Positions 5,838 to 16,791 of a stretch of DNA of 34,746 nt are shown in pieces. This DNA is from Desulfobacteraceae bacterium (GTDB lineage Bacteria; Desulfobacterota; Syntrophobacteria; Syntrophobacterales; Syntrophobacteraceae), in the NCBI GenBank assembly GCA_021372635.1, contig JAJFUA010000203.1:1-34746 (forward strand), given 5' to 3'. A program made the position numbers and the translations under genes. Within the stretch, counting starts at the first letter, position 1. Each line of letters opens with the position of its first letter. Below the pieces are notes generated by a model that made no database searches, was not told the DNA's origin, and saw nothing but the letters and a program-made list of their open reading frames with translations.

Positions 5838-6464
5838 CTACCGATGAGGGAAGCGAATATTCAGCTTTTCGGCAAAGCGTACGAGGTCTGCCAAAGACCC
5901 GGCTCCCATCTTCTCGAGGATGCGGGCACGGTGCACCTTGATCGTTTTTTCGCTGGTGCCGAGTTCGAAGGCGACCTGCTTGTTCAGCATTCCGGTCACC
6001 ACCAGGGCAAAGACCTCGGTCTCGCGGGGCGTCAAGGTCTTCAGACGCTCGCGCAGCTTCGCCATTTCCCTTTGCTCGCTCTTTGCCCTGTGGTCTGCGG
6101 CCACCGCCCCGGCGACGATGTCAAGCAGATCCTCTTCCATGAAGGGTTTCTGAAGAAAATCGACCGCTCCGGCTTTCATGGCCCGGACGCTCAGGGGGAT
6201 CGTTCCATGGCCGGTGATGAAAATGACGGGGAATCTTATCTCACGGTCGACCAGCCGCTCCTGCAGTTCGAGACCGCCCAGTTCAGGCATCCTGACGTCG
6301 AGAATGAGGCAGCCCGGGCCGCTGGTGTGCTGAAAATTCAAGAATTCGAGGGCGGAAGAAAAGGTCACGACCTCGTAGCCGGCCGACCGGAGGAGCCTGT
6401 CCATGGACCTGAGAACGGCCGGGTCGTCATCGACCACGTATATGACGGGTTTTTCACCTCTCAC
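5838..6464 (-). CDS. FixJ-family two-component response regulator
   Basis: A 208-residue regulator with a receiver domain (about 6-120: acidic pair in VVDDDP, phospho-acceptor Asp56 in LILDVRMP, Thr in FITGHG, Lys106 in LQKPF). After a short linker comes a LuxR-type helix-turn-helix (about 142-205; TPRETEVFALV and TSEKTIKVHRARILEKM). It should bind DNA when phosphorylated by the upstream kinase. The start is the GTG at 6464, which overlaps the kinase TGA (GTGA), so the pair is translationally coupled. An open frame extending farther upstream merely overlaps the kinase C-terminus in another frame. The regulator is the best local candidate for recognising the palindrome that begins just past its own stop codon, but nothing in the sequence proves this. 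Confidence 0.9.
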   Translation of the reverse strand: MRGEKPVIYVVDDDPAVLRSMDRLLRSAGYEVVTFSSALEFLNFQHTSGPGCLILDVRMPELGGLELQERLVDREIRFPVIFITGHGTIPLSVRAMKAGAVDFLQKPFMEEDLLDIVAGAVAADHRAKSEQREMAKLRERLKTLTPRETEVFALVVTGMLNKQVAFELGTSEKTIKVHRARILEKMGAGSLADLVRFAEKLNIRFPHR

Positions 6465-8773
6465 GGATGCGCCTCTCCGTCCACGGGCAGAGTGAAATAG
6501 AATGTGGCGCCGCCTTCCCTGTTGTTTTCGGCCCATACGGCACCCCCATGAGCTTTGACGATGGTGCGGCTGATCGAGAGTCCCATGCCCAATCCTTCCG
6601 GCTTCGTGGTGAAAAAGGGCTCGAAGATGTGCGCCATGTCCTTCCCGCCGATGCCGGTCCCCGAGTCCTTGATGGAAACCATGGCTGTTCGGCCGTCCTT
6701 CATGGCGGTCTTCAGGAGCAGTACCCGCAGGGCCGGAGGGGTATTGCTCATGGCGGCGATCGCGTTCATCAGCATGTTCAGCACGACCTGCTGCAACTGA
6801 ACGCGATCCGCCCATAAGGGCGGGATTCGAGAATCCAGTTCGGTCACGATGGAAATCTTGCCGAGCAGTGAGGCATTCTGGACGAGTGCGACGGTTTCCC
6901 CGACGACGTCGCCGAGAGTCACCGATTCGCGCCGTGGAGCATCCTTTTTGACGAGAGTCCGCAATCTTCGGATCACTTCACCGGCTCTCCTGCCATCCTG
7001 GACGATGTCGACGAGAATTTTGCCCACCTCGTCCAGATCGGGAGGGGAGCCGGAAAGAAATCGCTGTGCTGCCAGGGAGTTGCAGAGAATGGCCGTCATC
7101 GGCTGGTTGATTTCGTGCGCCAGGGACGATGCCAGTTCCCCGACGGTGACGATCCGCGCCATGTGGGTGAGTTCTTCTCGGCGCATCTGCGCCTCAAGTT
7201 CGGCAGCCTTGCGCTGACTGATATCCGAGTGAGAGACGACGACGCCTCCTCCGGGATTCCTGAAGGGTACCACTTTCATGGTAAACCATCGGGATTCAAA
7301 GGGAGGATCGCAGACATATTCAAACGAGAAGGTTTCGCTTTTCCCGTCCAGGACCGAGAGAATTCCGTTGAGGGCCTGTCCCGCAGAATCGTTGGGCATT
7401 CGGATGGACTGTCTGCAAGACTCCAGGTAATTGCCCCCGGGGCTCAGACCGGTCGGCAAAGGAGACCCGTTCGGGGCGGGAAATCGTTCCCAGGCTTCGT
7501 TGGCGGCGAGAATGAATCCGTTTCCGTCGAGGATGACAATGCGACTCTTCAAGGAGGCCAGCACCGACCGGTTGAACTCTTCGGATACCTTCGTGAAGTC
7601 GGCCACCGTCCGGTACATGGATTCCGTTTCTCTGAGGGAGTATTCGATCCGGCGCCGTTTCCGGAGGCTGACGACCAGAGCGGATATGAGCAACGCCTGA
7701 ACGATCAGGAGGGAGAAAAAACCGACGATCCGCCACCGGTACGTTTCCCATGCGGAGAATGTCCGATAGCGGACCTCGCTGCCTTCGGGCAGGCTTTCTT
7801 CGCCGATTCCCCATCGCCTGAGTTCCCGCGCATCGAAGACGTATCGGCTGGCGCTTTCCTCGACAGGCCCCACCGTACCCGGCTGTTCCCCGGCCAGAAC
7901 GCGGAGCGCAACCCGCGCCAGGACCGCTCCCAGGGAGGAGTAGCTGAGCAGACGGCCGCCCACGATTCCGGATCCCATGTACGGTTCGGCAACGCTGTAG
8001 ATGGGCGTGTTCGTCCGGCTGGAGAGAACGGCGAGAGCGTCGGGGGATTTGTAGGTCCTGCCGGTGCCGTCCTGGAAAAGGGAGATGTAGAGCACGAGGG
8101 AGTTTTCGGGAAGACTCGACAGGCGCTGGACGAAATCGTCCATGGAAAGCCTGCTGAGATACCGGATTTCGATTCGGGTCTCAAGGTTTCGAAGGGCTTC
8201 CCGCGTCATCCTTTCCAGGGACTGATCGAAGCGGGATGCCCCGGTCACGACATAAACCCTGCGGGTGCCTGGGTGCAGGCGCATGGCCGTGGCCATGGTT
8301 CCTTCGATGTCCAGCCCGCCGGTCACTACGGCCGCGACTGGTGGCAGCGCCGGACCGCCGAGCATTATCGGATCCTGCTCGCAGAGAATCACGGGGACGT
8401 TCTTAAAGGATTCCGGGCTGTATTCCGACAGGAATTTGAGGGATGGGCGCAAATCGGCTACGATGAGGTCGACTCTGACGATGGAATATTTCTCGCGGTA
8501 TAGCTCCATGAGCCTGTCGTGGTATCGCTCGTCCGGGAACCTGGTCAGGTCCATACATTCCACGTAGAATTCGAATTCGTAGTCCTTCGATGCCGTCAGC
8601 GTTTTCCGGAATCCGGTGTCGAGATTGATGAACCCGGGCATGTTGCTTTCGTACGGGTAGAGGACGAGGATCCTCTTTCTCTGCACCGCTGCGGATGAAT
8701 CCGGGAAGAAAACGGAAAACAGCAGCAGGCACAAAAGTGTGGCAGAGATTTTCGGATTGATCAGAGGTCTCAT
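6461..8773 (-). CDS. Sensor histidine kinase with ABC-type substrate-binding sensor domain
   Basis: A 770-residue hybrid sensor. Residues 1-29 are a signal/anchor segment. Residues about 33-345 resemble the ABC_sub_bind (LuxQ/YtfQ-like periplasmic-binding) fold, with alternating strand/helix pattern and KRILVLYPYES at its start. A membrane helix (about 348-370) leads to a PAS-like domain (about 400-520), a HisKA dimerisation domain with His553 in LAHEINQPM, and an HATPase domain: N box around Asn670, G1 DSGTGIG, F box FEPFFTTKPEG, G2 GLGMGLSI. The H-box and FixJ partner make it FixL/TodS-like. It should sense an extracytoplasmic small molecule; the ligand cannot be read from sequence. No strong ribosome site precedes the ATG. 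Confidence 0.9.
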   Translation of the reverse strand: MRPLINPKISATLLCLLLFSVFFPDSSAAVQRKRILVLYPYESNMPGFINLDTGFRKTLTASKDYEFEFYVECMDLTRFPDERYHDRLMELYREKYSIVRVDLIVADLRPSLKFLSEYSPESFKNVPVILCEQDPIMLGGPALPPVAAVVTGGLDIEGTMATAMRLHPGTRRVYVVTGASRFDQSLERMTREALRNLETRIEIRYLSRLSMDDFVQRLSSLPENSLVLYISLFQDGTGRTYKSPDALAVLSSRTNTPIYSVAEPYMGSGIVGGRLLSYSSLGAVLARVALRVLAGEQPGTVGPVEESASRYVFDARELRRWGIGEESLPEGSEVRYRTFSAWETYRWRIVGFFSLLIVQALLISALVVSLRKRRRIEYSLRETESMYRTVADFTKVSEEFNRSVLASLKSRIVILDGNGFILAANEAWERFPAPNGSPLPTGLSPGGNYLESCRQSIRMPNDSAGQALNGILSVLDGKSETFSFEYVCDPPFESRWFTMKVVPFRNPGGGVVVSHSDISQRKAAELEAQMRREELTHMARIVTVGELASSLAHEINQPMTAILCNSLAAQRFLSGSPPDLDEVGKILVDIVQDGRRAGEVIRRLRTLVKKDAPRRESVTLGDVVGETVALVQNASLLGKISIVTELDSRIPPLWADRVQLQQVVLNMLMNAIAAMSNTPPALRVLLLKTAMKDGRTAMVSIKDSGTGIGGKDMAHIFEPFFTTKPEGLGMGLSISRTIVKAHGGAVWAENNREGGATFYFTLPVDGEAHP

Positions 8774-9322: not shown

Positions 9323-11023
9323 ATGGAAGAGACTACGAGATCGAATGCGGCGAGGCTGGCGATTCACAATTTCAGGATTGCCGCGGATGCCCTTCTCCTG
9401 ATGGGCCGCTTCAAGATGAACGGACGATCCGGGCAGGTCCTGCAGGATGCCTTGAAAACGCTCAGTCCCGAAATCTACGGAACAATGAACGATCCCAGGC
9501 GAATAGAGTTGAAGGGGCTTGAATACGTGATGGACAGGCTGCCGCGCGGAATCGAAGAATGCAGCAGGTTCATCATGACCTCGGAGGCGGATCTCGAATT
9601 CACCCCATTTGAGATGCTGGAACCGCCGAAGCGCAGGAGAACGTCCTACCGGATCAACGAGAAAGAGATGTGCTTCGTGATTACTCGCGGCTTCAGCGAG
9701 ATCTACGATATCCTTACGCACCTGACCTTCCTCTATATCGAAGCGGTGAATATCCACAACCGGATGACCGACGATGAAGGGAATCTGACCACGGAGTGGA
9801 AAGAGCTTCAAAGCTTCATGGAAAATATTGAAGAATCCGATGCCGGCAAGCTCAATCGCGCCCTGTGGAACATGAGTATCATTCTTGGCAGAACATTTCA
9901 CGAGACGAAAGAAACTTTCGAGTATTTCGAAAAATCCAGGAGAGAGATGAACGCGAGCAACGGGTTATTCGAGATTGTCCTGAAGCTCGGGAAGGTGATG
10001 GAAAAGATCGTCAACAAGGAGGCGGACTTTGAAATCCAGTTCACTCCGGACCTGAGTCATATGATCCTGCACCAGGTGTGCGGGAAGAAATGGGCGGCCA
10101 CGATCAAGAAGAAACTTCTGGACCTGAATCTGTACGACCGGCCGCTGCACATTATCAGCTCGAATCTGCACAGCGTTCTCAATCTCTTGTACGGGTATGC
10201 CGCCGTGGGGGCCGGCCGGGAAAATGAACTCTCCGGCGATCTGTACCTGCTGATGCAGAAGCTTCGCCACAGGGCCGCGGAAGTGAAGGATTATGCGATC
10301 CGACACGGTTTTCACGAGATTCCGGATTCCTGCGGTGCGCAAACCGACTGCCAGATCATCGACGCAGCCGCAATCGACCTGGAGGGCATTCATCCCGACT
10401 TACGGATCGACAGGGAAGAGGTGGAAAAGGAAAAGCCTGTCCTGCTCGTGATGGACTATGCGTTCGGGACTCAGGCTTTCGAGTTGATCGATTCGCTGCT
10501 ACAGCCCACAATCGTGAACGGGGAGGAGAGGAACCTGGACCTTCGCTCCATGTCGGTCATGGGCAAGGCCGGGACGATTCGGGGGAAAAAGGGCGACATC
10601 ATGATCGCCACTTCCCACGTTCTCGAGGGCTCCGCGCACAATTACATCCTGGACAACGATCTGAAAAAGGAAGATTTCGACGGATACGGGGACGTCTTTG
10701 CGGGGCCCGTGGTGACCGTGCTCGGCACATCGCTCCAGAACCGCGACGTACTGGAGACATTCAGGAATACGAGCTGGAAAGCCGTGGGCCTGGAGATGGA
10801 AGGCGGGCATTACCAGAGGGCCATCAGTGCCGCCATGATTCGGCAGCACATTTCGAAACATGTGAAAGTGCGGTATGCCTACTATGCTTCGGACAACCCG
10901 CTCGAAAGCGGCCAGACACTGGCTTCGGGAAGCCTGGGAGAAGCGGGGATAAAACCGACCTACCTGATTACGAAGTGCATACTGGAGAAGATCCTGCAGG
11001 GGCGGACGGGGGAAAGGGAGTGA
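9323..11023 (+). CDS. DUF6909-like protein with nucleoside-phosphorylase-like C-terminal region
   Basis: A 566-residue cytoplasmic protein with GGAGG about 7 nt before its ATG; no signal peptide or membrane helix. The N-terminal half matches from memory the DUF6909 family (SPEIYG, GLEYVMDRLPRGIEECSRF, RRRTSYRI, RGFSEIYDILTHLTFLYIEA). The C-terminal part (about 380-560) looks like the purine/uridine phosphorylase superfamily: a VLLVMDYAFG strand, a MGKAGTIRGKKGDIMIAT segment, and the EMEGGHY motif, which corresponds to the MEG/MEA signature contacting ribose in nucleoside phosphorylases. A nucleoside or nucleotide substrate is therefore plausible but unproven. It is the only plus-strand gene here, convergent with aspA across a strong stem-loop. 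Confidence 0.8.
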   Translation: MEETTRSNAARLAIHNFRIAADALLLMGRFKMNGRSGQVLQDALKTLSPEIYGTMNDPRRIELKGLEYVMDRLPRGIEECSRFIMTSEADLEFTPFEMLEPPKRRRTSYRINEKEMCFVITRGFSEIYDILTHLTFLYIEAVNIHNRMTDDEGNLTTEWKELQSFMENIEESDAGKLNRALWNMSIILGRTFHETKETFEYFEKSRREMNASNGLFEIVLKLGKVMEKIVNKEADFEIQFTPDLSHMILHQVCGKKWAATIKKKLLDLNLYDRPLHIISSNLHSVLNLLYGYAAVGAGRENELSGDLYLLMQKLRHRAAEVKDYAIRHGFHEIPDSCGAQTDCQIIDAAAIDLEGIHPDLRIDREEVEKEKPVLLVMDYAFGTQAFELIDSLLQPTIVNGEERNLDLRSMSVMGKAGTIRGKKGDIMIATSHVLEGSAHNYILDNDLKKEDFDGYGDVFAGPVVTVLGTSLQNRDVLETFRNTSWKAVGLEMEGGHYQRAISAAMIRQHISKHVKVRYAYYASDNPLESGQTLASGSLGEAGIKPTYLITKCILEKILQGRTGERE

Positions 11024-11118
11024 CCTTCCCCACCGCTCTGCGGCCCGGGGCCTTGATGGGGGGATTTCACCGTCGGGGAGCGCACTTTCCCCCGTTGATC
11101 CGTGCCGACTTGTGCTAC

Positions 11119-11160
11119 CGGACGCCTCTTCCGCTCTTTCGAGGGCGCAAGAGGCGTCCG
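11119..11160. terminator. Convergent stem-loop between the DUF6909-like gene and aspA
   Basis: CGGACGCCTCTT (11119-11130) pairs perfectly with AAGAGGCGTCCG (11149-11160), a 12-bp stem with an 18-nt loop that can pair further inside. It lies 95 nt after the plus-strand stop and 5 nt after the minus-strand aspA stop, so it can end transcription from both sides. Neither flank has a good T-run. Confidence 0.65.
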
Positions 11161-11164
11161 TGTT

Positions 11165-13066
11165 CTATGCCTTGCCCATAGCGGGAACCTGGCGGGGATG
11201 CGTCATGCGTTCGGGGCTCAGAATATCCTCGAGGGCTTCCCGGGAAAGCCAGCCTTTTTCCAGGGTCAGTTCATAGACGCTGCGGCCGGTTTCCAGCGCC
11301 TCCCTGGCGACGGCCACGGATTTCTCGTACCCAAGCACCGGGTTCAAGGCGGTAACCAGTCCAATGCTGTTTTCGACGAACTGCCTGCATCGTTCGCGGT
11401 GGGCCTTGATCCCCGTGATGCACCGGCTTGCGAGAACGATGCATGCGTTCTTGAGAATCATGAGCCCGTGGAGCAGGTCGTAGATCAGTATGGGCTCCGC
11501 CATGTTCAGTTCCAGTTCGCTGGCCTCCGACGCCATGGAGATGGTCATGTCGTAGCCGATGATCTGGTAGCACACCTGGTTGACCATTTCGGGAATCACG
11601 GGGTTGACCTTGCCCGGCATGATGGAGGACCCCGGCTGCATTGCCGGGAGGGTGATTTCGTACAGGCCGCATCGCGGGCCGGAGGAGAGCCAGCGCAGGT
11701 CGTTGCAGATCTTGGAAATCTGCACGGCGGCGCGCTTCATGTTCCCCGACATCTGGGCAAAGGAGCCTCCTTCCTGGGTGGCTTCCACCAGGTTGGCCGC
11801 CTTGCGCACGGGGATTCCGCTGACCTCGGCCAGGTGTTGCGTCACCAGGTCGGCATATCCCGGCGGACTGTTCAACCCGGTGCCGATGGCCGTGGCGCCC
11901 ATGTTGATGTCGTGAAGCTCCGTCGCGGCGTGTTCCAGACTCCTCATGGAGCTTCCGATCATGACGGCGTAGGCTCCGAATTCCTGGCCCAGGGTCATCG
12001 GTACCGCATCCTGGTTTTCCGTCCGTCCCATCTTCAGGACATCGGCAAATTCGGCCGCCTTGGCTTCCAGCGCGGTTTTGAGTTCGCCCATGGCGCCAAG
12101 GGTGTCCTTCAGCGAGAGGATGACCGCAAGCTTTGCCGCGGTCGGGTAGGCATCGTTGGTCGACTGGGAGCAGTTGACGTCGTCGTTGGGATGCAGGTAC
12201 CGGTACTGGCCTTTTTCATGCCCCATGATTTCGAGTGCCCGGTTTGCGATGACCTCGTTGGCGTTCATGTTGGTGGATGTGCCCGCACCTCCCTGAATCA
12301 TGTCCACCACGAACTGATCGTGCAGCTTTCCGGCGAGTATCTCGTCGCAGGCGGTGCAGATCGCGTCCATCTTTTCCCGGGCGAGACCCCCCAGGCCGGC
12401 GTTGGCCAGTGCGGCGGCTTTTTTCACATAGGCCAGGGAGTTGACGAAGTGGGCGAAATTCTTGAGGGGAGTGCCCGAAATGGGGAAGTTTTCCAGGGCG
12501 CGGAGCGTCTGTACTCCGTAGTAGGCGTGGTTGGGGATTTCGCGTTCCCCGAGGAGGTCGTGCTCCATGCGCACATTTCGAATAAGCTGGTCGGTGGCCC
12601 CGGCAGCCATGAGCTTTTCCGTGGCGTACCGGAGACGATCGTTCAGCCTCCGTGCCACCTGTGCGACGATGCGGTAGAAGGCATCCGAATTGGTCCGGCG
12701 GACCCCCTCCCAGACGTCTTTGGCAACCTCCAGCACGGTTGCCCCCCTGGGGGTGTACGCGCTGACCGTGTGGGGTGAGTCGTCCAGAAGGGCCACTTCT
12801 CCGATCATCGCTCCGACTCCGAGATTGGCCAGGTGGACCTGGGAACCGTGCAGTCCCCTGACGATTTCGACTTCCCCCTCTTCCACGACTCCGAACCACA
12901 GCCGGGGCGTCGACTCGTGAAACAGCCACGAACCTGCCGGATAGACCTTTCTCACCCCCTGGGAGAAGATGATGCGAAGATAACTCTCATGGATCCCCGT
13001 GGCGGATGCCGCGTGTTGGATGATCTGTTCCACGAGACTGCCTGGTTTTTCGGGTTCCGTCTGCAT
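11165..13066 (-). CDS. aspA: Aspartate ammonia-lyase with N-terminal cyclic-nucleotide-binding-like domain
   Basis: A 633-residue fusion. Residues about 30-150 form a CRP/PKA-type cNMP-binding beta-barrel (GSWLFHE, GVVEEGEVEIV, IGEVALLDDSP). Residues about 164-630 are a complete class II lyase closer to aspartase than to fumarase: RMEHDLLGEREIPNHAYYGVQT, GTSTNMNANEVIANRALE, the SQSTNDAYPTA loop, and signature GSSIMPGKVNP at 479-489 with catalytic Ser481. It should convert L-aspartate to fumarate and ammonia. In the barrel the phosphate-binding Glu90 is kept, but His99 stands where cAMP-binders have Arg, so a different ligand or none may bind. AAGGAG lies 7 nt before the ATG. It follows the dicarboxylate carrier by 39 nt, suggesting aspartate import feeding fumarate respiration or succinate exchange. 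Confidence 0.88.
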   Translation of the reverse strand: MQTEPEKPGSLVEQIIQHAASATGIHESYLRIIFSQGVRKVYPAGSWLFHESTPRLWFGVVEEGEVEIVRGLHGSQVHLANLGVGAMIGEVALLDDSPHTVSAYTPRGATVLEVAKDVWEGVRRTNSDAFYRIVAQVARRLNDRLRYATEKLMAAGATDQLIRNVRMEHDLLGEREIPNHAYYGVQTLRALENFPISGTPLKNFAHFVNSLAYVKKAAALANAGLGGLAREKMDAICTACDEILAGKLHDQFVVDMIQGGAGTSTNMNANEVIANRALEIMGHEKGQYRYLHPNDDVNCSQSTNDAYPTAAKLAVILSLKDTLGAMGELKTALEAKAAEFADVLKMGRTENQDAVPMTLGQEFGAYAVMIGSSMRSLEHAATELHDINMGATAIGTGLNSPPGYADLVTQHLAEVSGIPVRKAANLVEATQEGGSFAQMSGNMKRAAVQISKICNDLRWLSSGPRCGLYEITLPAMQPGSSIMPGKVNPVIPEMVNQVCYQIIGYDMTISMASEASELELNMAEPILIYDLLHGLMILKNACIVLASRCITGIKAHRERCRQFVENSIGLVTALNPVLGYEKSVAVAREALETGRSVYELTLEKGWLSREALEDILSPERMTHPRQVPAMGKA

Positions 13067-13105: not shown

Positions 13106-14454
13106 CTAGAAGAAGAGCCCGGCAAGGACCAGGCCGGCTGTTACGGCGCAGGCGGTTGATACCAGCCCGGGCAGCATGAATGAATGGTTCAGAACATATT
13201 TCCCGATGCGCGTGGTGCCGCTGCGGTCGAAGTTGATGGCGGCGATAATGGTGCCGTAGGTGGGCAGAAAGAAGTATCCGTTGACCGCGGGCCACATGGC
13301 GATCAGGTATTGGGACGGGATTCCGAGGCTGATTCCGAGAGGCATGAGCGCCCGCGTCGTCGCCGCCTGGCTGAAGAGCAGCACCGAGGCAAAGAAAAGG
13401 CCGAAGGCGAACGAAATCGGGTAAGCCGTCGTAAGGTCTCCGATAAGTCCGATGATCACCTTCTCGTTTCCCTTGATGAACGTATCGCCCAGCCAGGCCA
13501 GTCCGAAAATGCCTATGACCGCCGTAAGTCCCGCCTGGGAGGAGTTGGTCCTGGTGACGCTTGCGGCGGGGACCTTCGTGAGCACCAGGATGAGGGCTGC
13601 GATGGAGAGCATCACGATCTGAATGCTGGTGGCCATATCAAGGGGAACCATCGCGTTTCCCTTGAGGATCTGCGGGCGAAGCACGGGGAAGAGCCCTGCC
13701 AGGACGATGAAGCCGACACCAGCCAGAAAGATCATGGCGCTCGTTTTCCCTGTTGCCGGCAATTCGCGCTTTACCTTGACCGTTGTCACGGCGGCCGTTC
13801 CGCCCTCGCAGGCCGAAAGCAGGGCATTTTCCGCCATGCGCCGGTTGTACTCCGGATCGTCTTTCAGTTCCTTGCCCACCCTGGTCTGAACGAGTGCGGC
13901 AATGAAAACGCCGATCAGGGTGGCCGGTATGGCGACCAGGATGATGTGCACCAGGCCCAGCCCAGCCGGTTCGAAAAGGGCGATCATGGCCGCCATGGCC
14001 GCTGAAACGGGGGAGGCCGTGATGGCCTGCTGCGAGGCGATGGTCGAGACCGCTATGGGCCTTTCCGGACGAATGCCGTTCTCGTGGGCGACTTCGTATA
14101 TGATCGGCAGGAGAGGGTAGAAGACATGGCCGGTGCCTGCGCCGAGGGTGAATATATAGGATACGATCGGCGCGACGATGGTGATTTGCCGGGGGTTCTT
14201 CCGGATGATTCTTTCAGCGGCGTGCACCAGGTACTCGATCCCCCCGGCGGCTTCCATGACGGCGGTGGCCATGATGACCGCCAGGACGATGAGCATGACG
14301 TCCACCGGAGGGGCCGTGGGGGGAGGCCGAAAAAGTAGGAAAGGACGAGGACGCCGACGCCTCCCCAAAGCCCCAGCCCGACACCGCCGGATCGGCTTCC
14401 CATCAGGATGGCGCCAACGACGACCGCAAATTCGATGAGAATCTTCAACCCCAT
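13106..14454 (-). CDS. dcuB: DcuB-like anaerobic C4-dicarboxylate antiporter, interrupted by a -1 frameshift
   Basis: The product should exchange aspartate, fumarate or malate for succinate across the inner membrane. The first 46 residues are read from the ATG at 14454 (AAGGAAG just upstream): ILMGSRSGGVGLGLWGGVGV and SYFFGLPP are typical of the Dcu N-terminus. The remaining roughly 403 residues (PPVDVMLIVLAVI, GTGHVFYPLLPIIYEVA, IRPERPIA, FDRSGTTRIGKYVLNHSF) lie in the -1 frame. The frames meet at a C6 run on the coding strand (14318-14323). One more C would restore a protein of about 449 residues, close to the family length. Causes could be a sequencing error, a real mutation, or slippage at C-CCC-CCA. 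The sequence is closer to DcuB than DcuA. It lies between the binding protein and aspA. Confidence 0.8.
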
Positions 14455-14507: not shown

Positions 14508-15329
14508 TCAGGGATTTCCGCGCAAGGTCTTCAGGCTCGATTCCATCTCAGCCAGGTACTTCTGCCGTAACTTTTCGTAGGTCCCATCCTCTTTCATCCT
14601 GGCGAGCTGCCTGTTGATCCAGTTGAGAAATTCCGTGTCGCCCTTCCGCACGGCAAGGGCATAAGGATGCGGGTTGAAGGGCGGACCTGCGGCCTTGAGG
14701 CCCGGGTTCTTTCGAGCCAGGAAAAGAGCCGTCATGTCGTCGGTGCAGACCACATCCACGCTTTTGGCCTTTAAGGCTTCGACCGCTTCTCCGAGGGTTG
14801 CGAAGCCGGTTCGGATCGATCGAGGGGCGATCTGCTCCAGGTCCTTTTCCTGGATCGCTCCCTTGAGCACGCCCACTTTTTTCCCCTCGAGGTCCTTGAG
14901 GCCGCTTACGGCGATGTCGCCGGCAACGAGGAGCAGGGATTCCGAAAGGAAATAGGGTTCCGAGAATTCCAGAACCTGCTTTCGCTGTTCGGTAATGGTC
15001 ATCGCAGCTGCGATGACGTCGATCCAGCGGCTATAGAGAAACGGGATGCGGCTTCCCGACGTTACGGAAACCAGTTCGAGCCTCCCGTCGGCGTCGAAAA
15101 GCTTTTGGGCAAGATAACCGGCCATTTCGACGTCAAGGCCCTGCTGGATGCCCGATTCGTCGACGTATCCGAACGGCGGAAAATCGCTCCTGACCCCGAC
15201 GAGCAGTTTTCCTCTCTGCCGGGCGTCGTCCAGTCCGCCGGCCGCCGCCCGGTTTCCCGCGGCAACGGCAATGCCTATTGCGATCACAAGGACAATGCTT
15301 GTCCGGAGCATCGAAAATCGCAGGTTCAT
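14508..15329 (-). CDS. Periplasmic amino-acid-type solute-binding protein (SBP_bac_3)
   Basis: A 273-residue protein starting at the ATG at 15329, with AAGGAG 7 nt upstream; a longer frame to 15437 lacks this. A signal peptide (about 1-30) is followed by a family 3 binding fold: LLVGVRSDFPPFGYVDESG, GLDVEMAGYLAQKLF, the RWIDVIAAAMTITEQRKQVLEFSEPYF segment, and a hinge region with VDVVCTDDMTALFL. Family 3 proteins bind polar amino acids or opines and usually feed an ABC transporter, but no permease or ATPase gene is nearby. It lies 22 nt after the efflux outer-membrane gene and 53 nt before the dicarboxylate carrier. Capturing aspartate or a related acid for the neighbours is an inference from context. 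Confidence 0.85.
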   Translation of the reverse strand: MNLRFSMLRTSIVLVIAIGIAVAAGNRAAAGGLDDARQRGKLLVGVRSDFPPFGYVDESGIQQGLDVEMAGYLAQKLFDADGRLELVSVTSGSRIPFLYSRWIDVIAAAMTITEQRKQVLEFSEPYFLSESLLLVAGDIAVSGLKDLEGKKVGVLKGAIQEKDLEQIAPRSIRTGFATLGEAVEALKAKSVDVVCTDDMTALFLARKNPGLKAAGPPFNPHPYALAVRKGDTEFLNWINRQLARMKEDGTYEKLRQKYLAEMESSLKTLRGNP

Positions 15330-15351
15330 GCCCTCACTCCTTTTCACGGTG

Positions 15352-16791
15352 CTATTGGTTTTCCCGCTTTGCAGCGCCGGGCTGTTCGCCTTCGCGCCAG
15401 CCGCCTCCCAACGCCTTGTAGAGCTGGACGGTGGCAAGGTACTGGTTCAGTTCGGTTCGAGCCAGGGTTGTCTCGGCTGGGAAGAGATTCTGCTGATTCT
15501 GAAGCACCTCGAAATAACTCGCTTTCCCGGATACGTAGCGCTTCAGGGAGACCTGGACCGCCTCCTCGTAGGCTTTTACCGCCCGGGACTGCTGGATGCG
15601 GGTCGCCGCATACTTCTGCCGGGAGATGAGCGCGTTGGACACTTCCTGGAAAGCGTTGAGAGCCGTTTGCTCGTAGACCAGCCTGGCCTCCTCGCAGGCG
15701 GCTTTCGCCTGCCGGTACTGGGCAACCAGCGTTCCTCCCTGGAAGAGAGGACCGGACATGGTGCCTGCGACGGCCCACAGGCTGGCGGTCCCGTCCGTGA
15801 AAGACGACAGTTCGGGGCTGACCTGGCCGAGAAGCGTGGTCAGCCCGATTTTTGGGAAGAAATTCGTCAGTGCGATGCCGATCTGTGCATTGGCGGCACG
15901 CAGATTCTGTTCCGCCTGCCGGATATCGGGGCGGCGTTCCAGCAACTCCGAGGGCAGTCCGGCGGGGATTTCCGGCGGGTTGGCCTGATCGAGCAGATGG
16001 GCTTTGCGTTCGACCGGCCCTGGGTTGCGCCCCAGGAGAACGTTGATCTGGTTTTCCTTGAGCACGATTTGACGCTCCAGGTCGGGAATGTTGGCTGAAA
16101 CCGAACCCACCAGGGCTTCGGCGCTTGCGGTTTCCAGCTTCGAGGCCGCTCCCCCTTCCAGCCGGAGGGTGAACATCCTCAGGGTGTCCTCGAAGGACTT
16201 GGTGTTTTTCCTGGAGATCGCCAACTCGAGGTCGAGTTCGAGCAGTTCGAAATAGGCCTGTGCCACGGAACTCACCAGGGAGACGACTACGGCCCGCCGT
16301 CCTTCTTCGGTCGCCAGGTATTGCGCACGGGCCGCTTCATTCTGACGCCGGATCCGTCCCCAGAAATCCATCTCCCAGAACACGCTCAGGTTGATAAGCG
16401 CTGAATCCTCCGTGCTGCCGCCGTTGGGGCTGGGGCTCGTCAGGAAGCTGTTCCTGCCCTTGGCGACGGTTGCATCGTAGGCGGCCTGGGGGAAGAACTG
16501 TCCCCTTGCCTGTGCGGCAATCTGGCGCGCCTGTTCGACGCGCATCACTGCGGCGCGCAGGTCGTAGTTCTTCTCCAGGGCTTCGGCGATGAGCCGCCGC
16601 AGCGTTTCATCCTTGAAGATGGTCCACCACGGGAGGTCGGCGATCGACCCCTGTTCCGCCGGCGTAAGGGCGCTCCGGAAGTTTGCGGGGGCATCGACCG
16701 CTGGACGCTTGTAGTCCGGACCCAGGGCGCAGCCGCAAATGCAAAGGGCCAGAAGAACCCAGAGAGACGCAAGTGTTCCGAGTCTTTCCAT
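15352..16791 (-). CDS. RND efflux outer-membrane lipoprotein (NodT/OprM family)
   Basis: A 479-residue outer-membrane factor. The lipoprotein signal ends in LCICGC with acylated Cys21, followed by the family opening ALGPDYKRP. Two repeated helical-hairpin halves are recognisable (PWWTIFKDETLRRLIAEALEKNYDLRAA and RRPDIRQAEQNLRAANAQIGIALTNFFP), which form the trimeric TolC-like barrel and periplasmic tunnel. It is the exit duct of the tripartite pump encoded upstream. Its ATG follows the transporter stop by 2 nt. The C-terminal hydrophilic tail is short. NodT/CusC-type and OprM-type members cannot be told apart here. Confidence 0.92.
   Translation of the reverse strand: MERLGTLASLWVLLALCICGCALGPDYKRPAVDAPANFRSALTPAEQGSIADLPWWTIFKDETLRRLIAEALEKNYDLRAAVMRVEQARQIAAQARGQFFPQAAYDATVAKGRNSFLTSPSPNGGSTEDSALINLSVFWEMDFWGRIRRQNEAARAQYLATEEGRRAVVVSLVSSVAQAYFELLELDLELAISRKNTKSFEDTLRMFTLRLEGGAASKLETASAEALVGSVSANIPDLERQIVLKENQINVLLGRNPGPVERKAHLLDQANPPEIPAGLPSELLERRPDIRQAEQNLRAANAQIGIALTNFFPKIGLTTLLGQVSPELSSFTDGTASLWAVAGTMSGPLFQGGTLVAQYRQAKAACEEARLVYEQTALNAFQEVSNALISRQKYAATRIQQSRAVKAYEEAVQVSLKRYVSGKASYFEVLQNQQNLFPAETTLARTELNQYLATVQLYKALGGGWREGEQPGAAKRENQ

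Follow-up and report, generated by a model that had tools for sequence, protein, structure and literature searches.

A conserved fusion of a CRP-type cyclic-nucleotide-binding domain to aspartase, found mostly in Desulfobacterota, and its possible control by a ligand

Introduction

Aspartase catalyses the reaction L-aspartate = fumarate + NH3. In canonical cyclic-nucleotide-binding (CNB) domains the conserved Glu of the PBC contacts the ribose and the PBC Arg contacts the cyclic phosphate; which ligands are bound by such domains beyond cAMP and cGMP is an open question. To our knowledge, few metabolic enzymes carry direct CNB fusions. Among the systems closest to the locus described here, E. 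coli dcuA and aspA belong to one operon, an arrangement indicative of L-aspartate use (PMC10634366). On the side of the CNB domain, Kannan et al. described a loop glycine, Gly169, that is co-conserved with the PBC arginine Arg209 (PMC2246266), and for His/Met variants, CooA and CprK they reported that an altered PBC is, or may be, accompanied by a different ligand (PMC2246266). PDZ-GEF has such a His/Met re-specialised pocket in a CNB domain for which no ligand is known (PMC2246266), and the trypanosome protein kinase A (PKA), which no longer has the PBC Arg, takes nucleosides as ligands (PMC10959531).

Gene and domain organization

The window, the whole stretch of 34,746 nucleotides of a Desulfobacteraceae bacterium that was analysed (GCA_021372635.1, contig JAJFUA010000203.1), carries a gene in which an aspartase is preceded by a CNB domain. 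Its parts are:

11165..13066, minus strand: CNB-aspartase gene, 633 amino acids, a single open frame with its ATG at 13066 and its stop codon at 11165-11167
12617..13066, minus strand: CNB (CRP-type) domain, residues 1-150, from the PF00027 match, the AlphaFold2 models and the structural neighbours MtbCRP, CAP and GlxR
12578..12616, minus strand: flexible linker, residues 151-163, with pLDDT below 50
11168..12577, minus strand: aspartase domain, residues 164-633, with the SS loop GSSIMPGKVNP, from profile matches, residue mapping and superposition

The ATG is preceded by a Shine-Dalgarno sequence, AGGAG, at 13078-13074 of the minus strand. Residues 40-124 match Pfam cNMP_binding (PF00027; E-value=7e-11, 42.4 bits against a curated cut-off of 27.5), residues 173-504 match Lyase_1 (E-value=9e-92) and residues 570-623 match FumaraseC_C. 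This split between a CNB model and both lyase models bears out the fusion that had been read in an earlier note from the sequence alone; the coordinates given there are also correct, and the gene lies on the minus strand. The protein narrowly passes the NCBIfam aspA model (TIGR00839; 681.9 bits, cut-off 681.2) and scores 724.8 bits against PRK12273 (cut-off 510); the scores of the aspA model, together with a tree position outside the FumC-like clade, rule out a fumarase. The window protein and 50 family proteins match no models other than cNMP_binding and the two for the lyase; there is no helix-turn-helix domain and no match to the GNAT acetyltransferase models.

The full-length AlphaFold2 model, for which 50 family members served as input, contains a complete CNB fold with N-terminal helices, a beta-roll, a PBC helix (residues 90-93) and the B and C helices (residues 116-154). 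Across residues 11-140 the block means of pLDDT are mostly 74-92, with one loop at 61, and pLDDT falls below 50 at residues 151-153 and 155-163 of the linker. Modelled alone, the CNB domain resembles MtbCRP, Thermus CAP and GlxR (Z 16-17, rmsd 3.1-3.6, over 136-147 residues), while the modelled lyase superposes onto solved aspartases of 52-55% identity. Because the linker is poorly predicted, the placement of the CNB domain on the lyase is not given by the model.

Distribution of the family

The fused enzyme is genuine and conserved. When 84,980 species genomes were scanned with patterns drawn solely from the CNB region, 50 loci came back, and in all of them (50/50, including one decayed copy and one truncated at a contig end) the CNB domain sits on an aspartase gene. 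Whole-genome searches and this pattern scan together define a coherent family of about 50 genes, mostly from Desulfobacterota, most of the hosts being sulfate reducers. All 50 aligned family proteins match cNMP_binding, Lyase_1 and FumaraseC_C. The fusion is present in the isolates Desulfobacter vibrioformis, D. latus, Desulfosarcina alkanivorans (complete genome), Desulfogranum and Desulfobulbus alkaliphilus, and Desulfopila aestuarii has two copies; a few fusions come from metagenome-assembled genomes (MAGs) labelled Acidobacteria, Planctomycetes, Anaerolineae and Actinobacteria, the taxon labels being quoted as given. An assembly artefact or chimera is ruled out by the 50 homologous loci, which are spread over isolates and MAGs, and a viral origin was rejected after a scan of viral contigs gave no relatives. 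In the open-access literature searched, no publication on a CNB- or cNMP-aspartase architecture was found, an absence that is weak evidence; the architecture lists of InterPro may already contain such fusions, unstudied.

The source genome and many relatives also possess unfused aspartases that lack a CNB domain. The one in the source genome (L002, G000:C253) is 61% identical and lies beside a Dcu gene fragment. In Desulforhopalus singaporensis (L142, about 5990-6530) the CNB-aspartase gene has decayed, with stop codons and frame breaks.

In a tree of the lyase domains the window protein belongs to a well-supported clade (support 99), designated group I. A second set of fusions, group II (L038, L040, L041, L076 and the remnant L093), lies close to the aspartases of E. 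coli and Elizabethkingia. With L093 scored as fused, since it retains a truncated CNB remnant, the AU test against a single common clade of all fusions gave p 0.016, which disfavours one clade; two fusion events are favoured by this result, not proven, the distant set having probably arisen separately. In L093 (1-600) a transposase-like fragment apparently replaces the N-terminal half of the CNB domain, and an open frame with the partial domain remains. One further unfused protein, L069 (G399, minus strand), which carries the motif GRTEMQD and an N-terminus resembling a signal peptide, is placed in or beside the CNB-aspartase clade. It is possibly a periplasmic aspartase in which the CNB domain was lost or never present.

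Lyase active site

The window protein and all 47 group I lyases share the catalytic and substrate residues Thr101, Ser140, Thr141, Asn142, Thr187, Ser318, Lys324 and Asn326 of AspB. At one further position of the active site the expected His or Gln is replaced in the window protein:

12017..12019, minus strand: codon of Glu350, the substrate-amine contact (His188 of Bacillus AspB, Gln191 of E. coli AspA), from residue mapping

Glu occupies this position in 43 of the 47 group I lyases (the others, L119, L139, L143 and L144, have Gln) and also in L069. His188 of AspB touches the substrate amine (PMC11744663), and since the contact is to the amine, ammonium handling may be tuned by Glu350. The position was not counted as aspartase-defining because it varies even among known aspartases, and Glu350 is predicted not to exclude aspartase activity. 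Six residues, His206, Met369, Met439, Ser516, Met522 and His533, do not vary within group I and are uncommon outside it; these are candidates for contact with the CNB domain.

Binding pocket of the CNB domain

Three codons mark the pocket:

12902..12904, minus strand: Arg55, in the beta2-beta3 loop at a position that is mostly Gly in canonical CNB domains; Arg in 47/49 group I homologues
12797..12799, minus strand: Glu90, the conserved PBC Glu; Glu in 47/49 group I homologues
12770..12772, minus strand: His99, at the position of the cAMP-phosphate Arg; His in 49/49 group I homologues, Arg in 28/36 other CNB domains

In alignments to PKG and to the Streptomyces CNB domain 2pqq, His99 takes the place of the PBC Arg and Arg55 that of the Gly of the beta2-beta3 loop. 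The canonical PBC Glu is present, and the PBC Arg and its co-conserved loop Gly are both absent; the retention of Glu90 and the His at the phosphate site had been recognized correctly in the earlier note. In the same profile, 36 other CNB domains, mainly the most window-like ones of relatives and so not a random sample, have Arg (28) or, in two cases, His at position 99, Gly at position 52 in 34, Gly (19) or, once, Arg at position 55, and Tyr or Phe at position 59 in 33. The positions near His99 have changed together in group I, from Gly to Ser52, from Gly to Arg55 and from Tyr to Gly59. Nine columns are invariant in the 49 group I CNB domains (His99, Ser52, Pro54, Gly59, Gly64, Gly71, Gly85, Gly108 and Arg144), and Trp57 is present in 48 of them. 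In the intact group II proteins the residue at the Arg position is His in three of four and Tyr in the fourth.

Sequence varies more in the CNB domain than in the lyase, with 51% identity to the closest homologue over the CNB domain as against 77% overall, and the barrel pocket is among the most conserved parts of the CNB domain in the 49 homologues. The term degenerate, which the earlier note had applied to the barrel, is contradicted by the fixed set of substitutions and the conserved pocket; that note had also named a lack of pocket conservation among homologues of the same architecture as part of what would refute its idea, and conservation is what was found. A fixed re-specialisation of the pocket makes canonical binding of cAMP by this domain unlikely and a different ligand likely, and we infer that Arg55 would take over part of the ligand contact. 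The conservation of the pocket could instead stem from constraints of the fold or of assembly.

Gene neighbourhood

Two genes upstream of the CNB-aspartase gene lie on the same strand:

13106..14454, minus strand: Dcu-type C4-dicarboxylate transporter gene (PF03605), 39 nt upstream of the aspartase gene
14508..15437, minus strand: gene for a periplasmic solute-binding protein of the amino-acid type (SBP_bac_3), from profile matches, probably of the same gene cluster

Of the 46 homologous loci with enough sequence, 31 have a Dcu gene as the immediate upstream neighbour in the same orientation. The encoded proteins are about 60-75% identical to that of the window in a few loci and about 40% in most, which indicates that the pairing has persisted across differing transporters. 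In the window the Dcu frame is broken in a run of C residues (14318-14323), near codon 45, by a mutation or an assembly error; the homologue in L095 is intact. A gene of the SBP_bac_3 type also adjoins the module in L095, L102, L107, L112, L114, L117 and L129.

Just 3' of the aspartase stop codon the minus strand contains a strong hairpin (11107-11161; -33.7 kcal/mol, z -4.3) that is not followed by a T run. Beyond it a DUF6909 gene (9323-11023, plus strand) is convergent to the aspartase gene; it was rejected as a partner on account of this orientation and of the lack of any homologue in the 50 homologous loci. Elsewhere in the source genome there are six class III nucleotide cyclase genes, and since these are present the organism probably makes cyclic nucleotides.

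Proposed function

On balance we favour a ligand-gated aspartase that works in an aspartate/fumarate exchange module and responds to a ligand other than canonically held cAMP; we infer the allostery, the type of ligand and the sign of its effect. An aspartase of the tetrameric type, paired with the adjacent Dcu antiporter, would serve the exchange of aspartate and fumarate, and so of nitrogen and C4-dicarboxylate. The CNB pocket, having kept the ribose-type Glu, lost the cyclic-phosphate Arg and gained the invariant His99 and, in the facing beta2-beta3 loop, Arg55, would accept a nucleoside, a nucleotide or another anionic metabolite. The state of the ligand would be relayed to the lyase through the C-helix and the linker, and aspartase activity raised or lowered. 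Against this reading stand the unfused aspartases of the source genome and of many relatives, which have no such domain.

That the domain senses nothing, and is a structural or assembly module for oligomerisation or for docking to Dcu or another protein, we consider unlikely. The conserved residues would then form an interface, and the block W47/S52/P54/R55/W57/G59 with R70-G71-H73-G74, which includes positions that vary in other CNB domains, could be one; the adjacency of Dcu fits such a role, and PDZ-GEF offers a precedent for a CNB domain with no ligand. Against it stand the retention of Glu90 in nearly all group I members and the fact that the changes fall at classical ligand-contact positions, and in 15 of the 46 testable loci the pocket is kept where no Dcu gene is adjacent.

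It is more improbable still that the enzyme is regulated by cyclic nucleotides in the normal manner, with His99, Arg55 or both standing in for the PBC Arg in the binding of cAMP or cGMP. Such binding would agree with the retained Glu90, with the place of Arg55 in the PBC-facing loop by alignment, with the six cyclase genes of the same genome and with the binding of cAMP by the nearest structural neighbours; however, the PBC Arg is replaced in every homologue, where in PKA a Lys at this site lowers the affinity for cAMP nearly ten-fold (PMC2246266), and the loop Gly co-conserved with that Arg has gone too. A functionless, degenerate passenger is barely credible: the greater variability of the CNB domain would suit it, but nine invariant columns in 49 sequences, His99 among them, a scoring CNB domain in 50 of 50 proteins and a fusion kept across orders and phyla do not.

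Within the favoured reading, that of a ligand-gated aspartase, a bolder form is put forward tentatively, as somewhat doubtful. The reciprocal exchange of Arg for His99 and of Gly for Arg55, with Ser52 and Gly59, may define a new class of sensor for a non-cyclic metabolite or an unusual nucleotide, which would gate the aspartase of sulfate reducers and, with Dcu, set the direction of aspartate/fumarate exchange. Ligand control of this family would tie the flow of nitrogen and C4-dicarboxylates in sulfate-reducing bacteria to a signal. The protein joins a metabolic enzyme and a CNB domain in one soluble, assayable chain, so that activity would report on the ligand, and the family is marked by a sharp, testable set of residues and has cultured isolates.

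Comparison with known systems

The lyase domain, the SS loop, the catalytic residues and a frequent pairing with Dcu are common to the window enzyme and the described aspartases (AspA of E. coli, 1JSW, and of Elizabethkingia, 6WNG; Bacillus AspB, 1J3U/3R6V), to which it adds the N-terminal CNB domain and the linker, Glu350 in most members and a length of about 630 as against 470 residues. E. coli aspartase is reportedly controlled by the PII protein GlnB (Schubert et al., 2021); there a nutrient signal acts through a separate protein, whereas here the domain is in cis and of another fold.

With the CRP/FNR regulators (MtbCRP, 3H3U; GlxR, 4CYD; E. coli CRP) the CNB fold is shared, the C-helix included (Z 15-17), but the window protein has no DNA-binding domain and differs in the changes of Arg to His99, of the loop Gly to Arg55 and of Tyr to Gly59. 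CooA, the CO sensor, likewise has a His at the equivalent of the PBC Arg (PMC2246266). CooA is a heme-binding transcription factor; in the window CNB domain the ribose-type Glu is kept. In the trypanosome PKA regulatory subunit the PBC Arg is lost too and specificity has moved off cAMP, although the shift is brought about there by a PBC Glu, with no His, and in the context of a eukaryotic kinase. The arrangement of domains is matched by the mycobacterial acetyltransferase Pat (4OLL) and by PycTIR (8JSK), in which a CNB domain is also N-terminal to the enzyme or effector domain that it controls; their catalytic domains are different, the window pocket lacks the canonical Arg, and it is only in the CNB part that the window protein resembles Pat.
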